Positions 43,841 to 47,408 of a stretch of 50,260 nucleotides of DNA are shown here, one piece after another. Numbering within the stretch: position 1 is the stretch's first letter; each line of letters begins with the position of its first letter. The DNA is taken from positions 1-50,260 of the forward strand of contig VXNZ01000044.1 in NCBI GenBank assembly GCA_009840355.1. Reading direction: 5' to 3'. Position numbers and translations under genes: made by a program. Origin of the DNA: Chloroflexota bacterium. GTDB taxonomy: Bacteria; Chloroflexota; Dehalococcoidia; Lucifugimonadales; JADFKI01. The notes beneath the pieces were generated by a model, which did not search any database, was not told where the DNA came from, and was given only the letters and a program-made list of their open reading frames with translations.

Positions 43841-43861
43841 CCACCGACACTGGGATGTGAA

Positions 43862-43891
43862 AAAGCCCCTCTCATATTGGAGAGGGGCTTT
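43862..43891. terminator. Bidirectional rho-independent terminator
   Basis: AAAGCCCCTCTC (43862-43873) pairs perfectly with GAGAGGGGCTTT (43880-43891) around a six-base loop. T-rich GCTTTT follows on the plus strand and an A-run precedes it, which becomes a T-run on the minus strand. It lies between the convergent small genes at 43634 and 43957. Confidence 0.85.
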
Positions 43892-43956
43892 GCTTTTGCC
43901 ATCAAGCTGCCGTCAATTTGGCGCCGGATGGAACGGGCGCTCGTTAGATTCCGGAG

Positions 43957-44133
43957 CTATGCTGCCTTCTTCTTGCCGGCTTGGGCGGCGAGTTTTAGCG
44001 AGAAGAGGTCGGACTCTCTCGGGATGTCTATCACGTTGCCGCACTGGATGCACATGCGATACTCGCCGTAGATGTCGCGATTGGAATTCATGTCGCCGCC
44101 GCAGCGGTTGCAGGACTTCAGGTACACAGCCAT
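43957..44133 (-). CDS. Small zinc-ribbon protein
   Basis: A 58-residue protein with two CxxC pairs (CNRCGG and CIQCGN) about 20 residues apart, a classic zinc ribbon. A basic tail (LAAQAGKKKAA) follows. ATG 44133 is chosen because GAGGTGG lies just upstream; an extension to 44145 is unsupported. Zinc ribbons of this size bind nucleic acid or protein; no specific role can be assigned. Its promoter region carries the palindrome at 44221. Confidence 0.75.
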   Translation of the reverse strand: MAVYLKSCNRCGGDMNSNRDIYGEYRMCIQCGNVIDIPRESDLFSLKLAAQAGKKKAA

Positions 44134-44220
44134 TTGCCACCTCACTTATTTCTTTCCTGTCTTGACGCTTGTATTTAGCAGATTGCGTTCATCTGCAACT
44201 ACACGAATAATGATATAATA

Positions 44221-44239
44221 TTGACACGCATCGTGTCAA
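44221..44239. promoter_or_regulatory. Palindromic operator TTGACACG-CAT-CGTGTCAA
   Basis: A perfect 8-base inverted repeat spaced by three bases. Each arm starts with TTGACA, a consensus -35 box, on opposite strands. On the minus strand TATATC (44217-44212) lies 16 bases on, towards the zinc-ribbon gene; on the plus strand TATAAA (44242-44247) lies 15 bases on, towards hspR. A repressor bound here would block both directions. The regulator is unknown. The whole 44134-44442 spacer is otherwise gene-free. Confidence 0.6.
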
Positions 44240-44327
44240 GATATAAACTATACATCGAATAGTGCTTCTATATTCAACGATTGCCAATGCCTTGTAGCAA
44301 CAGCGCCTAATGCATCTACGACAATAT

Positions 44328-44357
44328 CTGCAATTTGCAGTAGGCGTTGCGTATAAT
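44328..44357 (+). promoter_or_regulatory. hspR promoter region with palindrome CTGCAA-T-TTGCAG
   Basis: TATAAT (44352-44357) lies about 85 bases before hspR ATG. A 13-base palindrome, CTGCAATTTGCAG (44328-44340), covers the place where a -35 box would be. The HspR target HAIR (CTTGAGT-N7-ACTCAAG) and the HrcA target CIRCE are not seen. Confidence 0.45.
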
Positions 44358-44398
44358 ATAACGAGTGAAATGGCGATAGGTTAGCAGAACGGCGACAT

Positions 44399-44425
44399 AG
44401 CACGAGTGCTTTCGTCAGTCGTGCT
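44399..44425 (+). promoter_or_regulatory. Inverted repeat in the hspR leader
   Basis: AGCACGA (44399-44405) pairs with TCGTGCT (44419-44425), spacing 13. It lies between the -10 box and the hspR start codon. It could be an operator or an RNA hairpin just before the GGGAGGG ribosome binding site. Confidence 0.4.
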
Positions 44426-44442
44426 GCATCGCGGGAGGGAAC

Positions 44443-44808
44443 ATGAACAGACACCGGCATGCAAGCGAGCAACTGGATGGCGTCTATATCATCAGCGTGG
44501 CGGCACGCATCCTCGAAATGCATCCGCAGACGCTGCGCAAGTACGAGCGCATCGGACTCGTGCGCCCGTCCCGCACCGTGGGCATGCTGCGTCTGTACTC
44601 GGACGAAGATGTAGCACGGCTGCGGCTCATCAAGCATCTCGTCGGCGATATGGGATTGAACCTCGCCGGCGTGCAGCTCACCTTGCTCTTGTTCAACAGG
44701 CTGTTGCAGATGAAAGCCAAAGTGCGAAACCTCGAAGGCGAGGAACTCCGGCAGTCGCTTGACGACAGCATCGACGAGATGCTGGGCATGCTGCACGGGC
44801 AGACATAA
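44443..44808 (+). CDS. hspR: HspR-like MerR family heat-shock repressor
   Basis: A 121-residue MerR-type regulator. YIISVAARILEMHPQTLRKYERIGLVRPSRT is the winged helix-turn-helix, LYSDEDVARLRLIKHLVGDMGLNLAGVQ completes it, and a coiled-coil tail (LLQMKAKVRNLEGEELRQ) follows. HspR normally represses dnaK operons with DnaK as co-repressor. Here it is the first gene of the operon, before grpE and dnaK, unlike the actinobacterial order where it is last. A GGGAGGG site precedes ATG 44443. Confidence 0.88.
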   Translation: MNRHRHASEQLDGVYIISVAARILEMHPQTLRKYERIGLVRPSRTVGMLRLYSDEDVARLRLIKHLVGDMGLNLAGVQLTLLLFNRLLQMKAKVRNLEGEELRQSLDDSIDEMLGMLHGQT

Positions 44809-44842: not shown

Positions 44843-45439
44843 TTGAGCAGCGAAGAGAGACAAGAAGAAGACGCGCCAGCCCCGGACAGCAGCGAAGAAT
44901 TACTGCGCCAAGTGCTTTCGGAGATGGAAACGCAGACGCTTCCTGAAGCGAAAGACGAAATGGAACGCGAACGCGACCAGTTCAAGGCGATGGCGCAGCG
45001 CGCGCAGGCGGACTTGGTCAACTACAGGCGGCGCGTGGACGAAGAGCGCCAGGAACTGCAGCGCAACGCGAATGCCAGCCTGTTGGCGAAGTTCCTAGGC
45101 GTGGTGGACGACTTCGAGCGCGCGATAGACATGCTGCCCGAAGACGCGGCGGCAGCGGGCTGGCAAGAAGGGCTGATGCTGGTCAAGCGCAATCTCGACC
45201 ATCTGCTGGAATCCGAAGGCGTCAGTAAGATAGAGGCGGACGGAAAACAGTTCGATCCTTATGAGCACGAAGCGGTGCACTACTTGGAATCGCCCGACGC
45301 CGAAGACGGCTCTATCATTCAAGTATTCCGAGACGGCTATCGATTGCACGACCGAGTGTTGCGTGCATCGCAGGTCATCGTCGCGAAATCCGCGCAGGAC
45401 GCGCAAACAGAATCGAACGATCAGTCAAGTTCGCAATAG
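44843..45439 (+). CDS. grpE: Nucleotide exchange factor GrpE
   Basis: GrpE releases ADP from DnaK. Start TTG 44843, with GGAGG seven bases upstream, gives 198 residues. After an acidic leader the coiled-coil DQFKAMAQRAQADLVNYRRRVDEER and the hinge NLDHLLESEGVSKIEADGKQFDPYEHEAV are clear; the beta domain VFRDGYRLHDRVLRASQVIVAK ends it. The tail is rich in Ser and Gln. It lies 34 bases after hspR and 67 before dnaK, so it is part of the same operon. Confidence 0.95.
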   Translation: MSSEERQEEDAPAPDSSEELLRQVLSEMETQTLPEAKDEMERERDQFKAMAQRAQADLVNYRRRVDEERQELQRNANASLLAKFLGVVDDFERAIDMLPEDAAAAGWQEGLMLVKRNLDHLLESEGVSKIEADGKQFDPYEHEAVHYLESPDAEDGSIIQVFRDGYRLHDRVLRASQVIVAKSAQDAQTESNDQSSSQ

Positions 45440-45506: not shown

Positions 45507-47408
45507 ATGGCAAATATACTCGGAATCGACCTCGGAACCACGAACTCGTGCATGGCGGTGATCGAAGCGGGCGAGCCGCGTGTGGTGGAGAACGCAGAGG
45601 GCGGGCGGACTACACCGTCGGTCGTGGGTTTGAACACGCGATCCAACGAGCGCTATGTAGGCACGACCGCCAAGCGCCAAGCGGTAACGAACCCGGAGAA
45701 CACGGTCTATTCAGTGAAGCGGCTGATGGGCAGGCGCTTCGAGGACGACAGCGTGCAGCGCGACCTGTCGCTGCTGCCCTACAAGGTAGTGCAGCATACG
45801 AACAACGACGCCTATGTCGTAATGGGCGGCAAGAACCACGCGCCGCCGGAAATCTCCGCGATGGTGCTGCAAAAGCTGAAGCAGGACGCCGAGGCAAAGC
45901 TTGGCGAGAGCATCAACCAAGCCGTCATCACCGTACCGGCGTACTTCAACGATAGCCAACGCAACGCAACGAAGGACGCGGGCCGCATCGCCGGGCTAGA
46001 AGTGCTGCGCATCATCAACGAGCCGACGGCGGCATCGTTAGCCTACGGGCTGGACAAAAAGACCGACGAGACTATCGCGGTATATGACCTCGGCGGCGGT
46101 ACATTTGACATCACTGTGCTGCAAATCGGCGAGGGCGTGTTTGAAGTCAAGGCGACGAACGGCGACACGCACCTGGGCGGCGACGACTTCGACGAGCGCA
46201 TCGTGGACTGGATTGTGGAAGAGTTCCGGCGCGAGCAGGGCATCGACCTGAAGCAGGACGGCATGGCATTACAGCGTCTGCGCGAGGCGGCGGAGCGCGC
46301 GAAGATCGAACTTTCCACGCTGATGCAGTCCGAGATAAACCTGCCGTTCATCACCGCGGACGCATCCGGCCCCAAGCATCTGGTAATGAGCCTGTCGCGC
46401 TCCAAGCTGGAGCAGCTGGTCGCCGACCTCGTACAGCGCACGATTGACCCTTGCAGGAAGGCGATCTCAGACGCCGGCGTGAGCGTGGGCGAAATTGACG
46501 AAGTAATCCTTGTGGGCGGCATGACGCGCATGCCTGCGGTGCAAAAGGTCGTAACGGACCTGTTCGACAAAGAGCCGCATCAGGGCGTCAATCCGGACGA
46601 GGTAGTGGCGATTGGCGCAGCGATACAAGCAGGCGTGCTGCAAGGCGAAGTGCAGGATATTCTGCTGCTGGACGTTACTCCGCTCAGCCTAGGTATCGAG
46701 ACGCTCGGCGGCGTGTCCACCACGCTTATCTCGCGCAACACGACAATCCCGACGGCGAAGAGCGAGACATTCACCACCGCAGCGGACAATCAGCCGAGCG
46801 TTGAGGTGCATGTGGTGCAGGGCGAGCGCAGCATGGCGGCTGAGAACAAGAGCATCGGCAGGTTCATCCTCGACGGCATACTGCCCGCGCCGAGGGGTGT
46901 GCCGCAGATCGAAGTTACATTCGACATCGATGCGAACGGCATCCTGAACGTGTCCGCGCAGGACAAGGGCACAGGCAAGGAGCAGCGCATCACCATCACG
47001 GCGAGCAGCGGCTTGGCGCAAAGTGAAATCGACCAGATGGTGCGCGACGCCGAGATGCATGCCGAGGAAGACGCGCGCCGCCGCGAAGATACGACCACAC
47101 GCAACAACGCCGAGAACTTGGCATACAGCGCGGAAAAGCTGATTGCGGACAACACAGACAACCTGCCGGCAGACCTGAAGTCCACGGCAGAAAGCAAAAT
47201 TGCCGCAGTACGCGCAGCCCTGAGTGGAGGCGACATAGCCGCGATTACCACTGCGTCCAACGAACTGCAAGAGGCGATACAGCAGCTCGGTCAGGCAGTG
47301 TACGCCCAAACAGGAGCGCCCGGCCAGCCCGGCGCGGCTCCCGGCGACATGCCGCCGGACGACGGCACCGTCGAAGGCGAATACCGTGAGGTTGACCCGA
47401 AGGAGTAA
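45507..47408 (+). CDS. dnaK: Chaperone DnaK (Hsp70)
   Basis: DnaK binds unfolded peptides in an ATP-controlled way with GrpE and DnaJ. The 633-residue protein has the nucleotide phosphate loop GIDLGTTNS (6-14), [15 protein letters not shown], the substrate domain with [17 protein letters not shown] and [10 protein letters not shown], and a C-terminal helical lid. The end [22 protein letters not shown] is the typical acidic tail. AGGAG lies eight bases before ATG 45507. No dnaJ follows; the terminator at 47445 closes the operon. Confidence 0.98.

Follow-up and report, generated by a model that had tools for sequence, protein, structure and literature searches.

A conserved HAIR-like palindrome merged with the hspR promoter is a predicted HspR operator in a Dehalococcoidia bacterium

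The window, a stretch of 50,260 nucleotides from a Chloroflexota bacterium of the class Dehalococcoidia (contig VXNZ01000044.1), carries a chaperone operon in which hspR (44443-44808) is followed on the forward strand by grpE (44843-45439; Pfam GrpE, 148.5 bits) and dnaK (45507-47408; NCBIfam DnaK, 988 bits). Upstream of hspR lies a small gene on the reverse strand (43957-44133), which starts at 44133 and is divergent from hspR. The hspR product is a MerR-family heat-shock repressor of 121 amino acids that matched Pfam MerR_1 and passed the HspR profile NCBIfam NF047375 with 105.9 bits, the curated cut-off being 105. Its best match was the 97% identical HspR of Chloroflexi bacterium SB0664_bin_29, with SAR202/Dehalococcoidia metagenome assemblies as the closest sources, and the solved structures nearest to it by sequence are chains of the MerR-family protein GlnR. 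The divergent gene encodes a zinc-ribbon protein of 58 amino acids (CxxC...CxxC) with a weak LysW-like match in a profile search, and homologues of this gene adjoin hspR in 46 other loci, in most of which they are divergent from it. Between the zinc-ribbon gene and a molybdopterin oxidoreductase gene there is a strong hairpin at 43861-43894, flanked by A and T tracts, which is likely to be a bidirectional terminator.

Three palindromes had been described in an earlier note on this DNA between the zinc-ribbon gene and hspR, and all are present: palindrome 1, TTGACACGCATCGTGTCAA (44221-44239, composed of TTGACACG-CAT-CGTGTCAA), palindrome 2, CTGCAATTTGCAG (44328-44340), and palindrome 3, AGCACGA-N13-TCGTGCT (44399-44425, forward strand). 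As single sequences they barely exceed chance, since a palindrome with 8-bp arms arises in 14% of dinucleotide shuffles of the 309-bp region and a short-spacer palindrome with 6-bp arms, the type of palindrome 2, in 42%; the case therefore rests on comparison, and conservation alone tells the three apart. The pattern TTGA-N11-TCAA of palindrome 1 was found in 50 of the 55 upstream regions of dnaK-linked hspR genes of the order, sites that are related by phylogeny, and with one mismatch in the remaining five (G008, G011, G014, G019 and G035), where shuffling gave an expectation of 0.47 per 55-region set. The 55 were the full-length readable regions upstream of dnaK-type hspR in a search that took in 41 families. 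Other spacings from N4 to N19 occurred 0 to 3 times in this set and none recurred. Similar figures came from a second, organism-named collection that overlaps the first in organisms, with the pattern at 75/80 hspR loci and other spacings 0 to 4 times. The consensus of the box is cTTGACAYR-N3-YRTRTCAAg; over 52 aligned sites position 4 is C at a frequency of 0.92 and position 5 is A at 0.98, and the outermost bases are C at 0.60 and G at 0.56, the window itself having A on the left and G on the right. The conservation of palindrome 1 spans the order and reaches outside it, and at the level of sequence the palindrome was confirmed as a real, deeply conserved element.

A consensus -35 box, TTGACA, is present on each strand of palindrome 1, as had been claimed. 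On the forward strand it occupies 44221-44226, the very bases of the predicted operator half-site, and column conservation places a -10, TAAACT, 17 bp from it at 44244-44249. The TAnnnT motif 17 bp past TTGACA on the hspR strand is strongly constrained (first T 0.96, A 0.94, last T 1.00) and stands at ~17 bp in 98-100% of the named loci. As the TTGACA half-site is followed by a -10 at exactly 17 bp in nearly every genome, the predicted operator and the promoter coincide. The likely -35 of hspR had been placed under palindrome 2, but the conserved hspR-grpE-dnaK promoter lies within palindrome 1 instead. On the reverse strand TTGACA at 44234-44239 would be the -35 of a divergent zinc-ribbon promoter, and TATCAT at 44210-44215, with an 18-bp spacer, is its likely -10, as judged from the sequence, from the conservation of the reverse -10 and from its dependence on gene orientation. 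A reverse -10 at 16-18 bp was found at 31 of the 46 loci with a divergent zinc-ribbon gene (67%), compared with 2 of the 10 with a tandem upstream gene (20%) and a background of 5%; the Fisher p for divergent against tandem loci is 0.011, phylogenetic kinship being ignored. The reverse TTGACA also tracks the zinc-ribbon gene and was found at 22/46 loci with it (48%) and at 1/21 without, again ignoring kinship. The occurrence of promoter elements on both strands, which follow the divergent gene, supports shared divergent control as far as sequence can indicate it. Of the proposal that one repressor could silence both directions, the divergent promoters at palindrome 1 were borne out, and the repression itself would be expected by analogy.

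Palindromes 2 and 3 had been taken for operators as well and were rejected as such, being unconserved and at chance level in shuffles. Palindrome 2 is part of a leader stretch that is conserved in the genus, with CTGCA.TTTG and the downstream GTTGCGTATAATATAACG maintained, but its symmetry is broken in 3 of the 5 species. Palindrome 3 is present only in the genome of the window and its closest relative (G002), between which there are two compensatory pair changes and one mismatch, and it is probably a leader RNA hairpin, which fits these sequences better than an operator does. The leader also contains ATAACG-N15-GGTTAG (44358-44384, forward strand), which overlaps both GTTGCGTATAATATAACG and the TATAAT of the earlier note. 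In the form YAACG-N15/16-GGTTAG(C) this element was found with near-fixed spacing in 14 genomes of several families (the window with G001-G004, G006, G007, G012, G029, G042, G046, G047, G050 and G053), at varying distances from the promoter and the start codon, and it had no match in Rfam. As a genome-wide motif YAACG...GGTTAG was discarded, with 7 matches vs 10 for a control and hence no enrichment. The idea that the entire leader forms a structured RNA was likewise discarded, with a folding z-score of 0.00 against shuffles and Rfam matches that were only sub-threshold and fell at the upstream terminator hairpin. The invariance of GTTGCGTATAATATAACG in five congeneric species could be taken to mean that the genus actually uses the TATAAT at ~44352 as its hspR promoter, palindrome 2 being the operator of that promoter. 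This is quite unlikely given the broken, chance-level symmetry of palindrome 2 and the observation that outside the genus only YAACG...GGTTAG persists and TATAAT does not. With the conserved promoter in palindrome 1, TATAAT may be a second promoter.

The operator of HspR is known as HAIR, CTTGAGT-N7-ACTCAAG (PMC6102357, PMC7464140). The distance from TTGA to TCAA is 11 both in HAIR and in the palindrome 1 box, whereas the inner bases in the window are CA/TG and not the GT/AC of HAIR, and for this reason an exact test for HAIR fails. The earlier statement that no HAIR is visible was therefore wrong in spirit, as the box keeps the frame TTGA-N11-TCAA, and the suggested new recognition sequence holds as a HAIR variant with changed inner bases but not as an unrelated sequence. 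Judged by its bases palindrome 1 is a remodelled HAIR, in which the outer TTGA...TCAA and the spacing are kept. It resembles the HAIR of Streptomyces in the outer TTGA...TCAA, which C and G flank most often in the consensus, the spacing, the place before the dnaK operon and clpB, the MerR-type HspR and the layout expected for autoregulation. It differs in that the inner GT/AC is here CA or TA, the half-site TTGACA doubles as the -35 box, the operon begins with hspR and the divergent zinc-ribbon gene would share the operator. In Helicobacter pylori and Campylobacter jejuni HspR also has imperfect HAIR-like repeats as its sites, some of which overlap core promoters (PMC6102357, PMC7464140), but there the operators extend over 70-80 bp, several binding events take place and HrcA shares in the control, whereas here there is one box whose promoter geometry is fixed. 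The canonical TTGAGT half was found in 0 of 75 hspR boxes, compared with 11 of 17 clpB boxes of relatives, and where a clpB box has one TTGAGT half the other is mostly TATCAA-like. A simple reading would be that service as a promoter element changed TTGAGT to TTGACA. An N7 centre is found in GlnR and TnrA sites too, but the operators of GlnR differ from the box in half-site and physiology.

Genome-wide scoring was done by pattern searches, in which four places in the genome of the window matched TTGAYAYNNNNNRTRTCAA perfectly or with a single mismatch, hspR being one of them. A look before other chaperone genes had been proposed as a check, and it came out in favour of the proposal: the box precedes clpB and, in some relatives, hsp20 or dnaJ. 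In the genome of the window (clpB at G000:C9:93623-96040) it is one mismatch off the pattern and lies 73 bp before the start codon, with TATACT further down; clpB of relatives is also preceded by a box. The -35 of clpB promoters is mostly elsewhere or offset from the box, whereas in hspR promoters the half-site is the -35. Further boxes were found between dnaJ and hsp20 (G028) and before dnaJ-hspR2 (G014 and G029), and a box with the same 17-bp layout stands before hspR-clpB operons both elsewhere in the class and in further classes of the phylum (G310, G232 and G172). The third box in the genome of the window, on contig C12 (L003 5158-5176), stands before an ORF of 62 amino acids (L003 5218-5403) that had no family match. 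Box, ORF and a -10 at 17 bp recur in two congeneric relatives (G002 and G004), and another (G001) keeps the box with the ORF further off.

The HspR proteins that accompany the box have the recognition helix HPQTLRKYE. The box accompanies hspR of this type even outside the class, and outside the order operator and helix type are correlated, kinship being ignored. Two other candidate regulators are encoded in the genome of the window, HrcA and a second HspR-like protein (L089 5300-5695; G000:C8:17299-17694, minus strand), which lies behind dnaJ, is 48% identical and has a QTLRYYE helix, and either might be thought to bind the box. No HrcA was detected in 12 relatives; 11 of these carry the exact box, and the 12th has it with one mismatch. 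The operator of HrcA, CIRCE (TTAGCACTC-N9-GAGTGCTAA), is likewise an inverted repeat and a chaperone operator, but the box differs from it in sequence and spacing. CIRCE is absent at the hspR locus, in agreement with the earlier note, and with up to 3 mismatches it had no match in the genome of the window. A 4-mismatch variant, TTAGCAGAC-N9-GTCTGCTAA, two bases off per arm, was found ~126 bp upstream of the groES match (L323). The dnaJ-linked second hspR is mostly without a box before its own operon. With the absence of HrcA from box-keeping genomes, the separate CIRCE variant of groES and the association of the box with the HPQTLRKYE type, this makes it very unlikely that the box belongs to another regulator, and HspR remains the preferred binder. 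The second HspR-like protein (G000:C8:17332) could share or own some of the box sites.

That palindrome 1 is merely two overlapping divergent promoters, TTGACA back to back with no repressor, would account for the hexamers on both strands and for a reverse -10 conserved where a divergent gene exists, but it is most improbable, as TCAA is retained at the N11 spacing in the ten loci whose upstream gene is tandem (no selection effect, because 75/80 loci keep the box overall), clpB boxes hold the dyad despite a -35 elsewhere or offset, and no promoter requires TTGA-N11-TCAA.

Palindrome 1 is very probably the operator of HspR, a remodelled HAIR merged with -35 boxes in an autoregulated chaperone switch that has clpB as a second target. 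This draws on the box itself and how well it is conserved, on the promoter geometry, on the pattern of the regulon and on the boxes that are hybrids with HAIR halves; binding, repression and release on heat would be as they are for HspR in Streptomyces, Helicobacter and Campylobacter (PMC6102357, PMC7464140). In such a switch the inner GT/AC would have become CA (or TA), a change by which the proximal half-site could double as the -35 TTGACA of the hspR-grpE-dnaK promoter, and where a divergent gene exists the distal half-site would often have become a -35 too. Bound as a dimer, HspR would mask the -35 and the spacer and keep RNA polymerase out in either direction until heat or unfolded protein sets the repressor free. 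The chaperones would then be induced under autoregulation, with clpB as the second HspR target.

A wider proposal, for which the case appears evenly balanced, is that in this Chloroflexota lineage HspR with the helix HPQTLRKYE has shifted its specificity, that the 19-bp box provides at once the repressor half-sites and the -35 hexamer for each of two divergent promoters, that the zinc-ribbon protein and the small genus-specific ORF join the chaperone regulon and that the half-old, half-new boxes of clpB record the change. No published HspR site for SAR202 or related Dehalococcoidia was found in the literature searched, and the box gives a testable heat-shock regulon for these mostly uncultured bacteria. 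It would also indicate that the same bases can come to serve both as repressor site and as promoter element, the clpB boxes being mixed forms, and would link a conserved zinc-ribbon protein to chaperone control.

The fourth of the matching places, a one-mismatch box, TTGAGATTTGGCGTATCAA (L284 510-528; G000:C26:19909-19927), was seen about 50-70 bp before a gene for a possible membrane-anchored thioredoxin-fold protein, with no evident -10 at this site. A search of the genome of the window for canonical HAIR with up to 2 mismatches gave 59 matches vs 56 for a control pattern, an uninformative list, one member of which, ATGAGTTGACTTGACTCAT, precedes hsp20. The gene for the second HspR-like protein adjoins a divergent hsp20, before which stands GATATGAGT-CAAGTCA-ACTCATATC, a sequence close to canonical HAIR.
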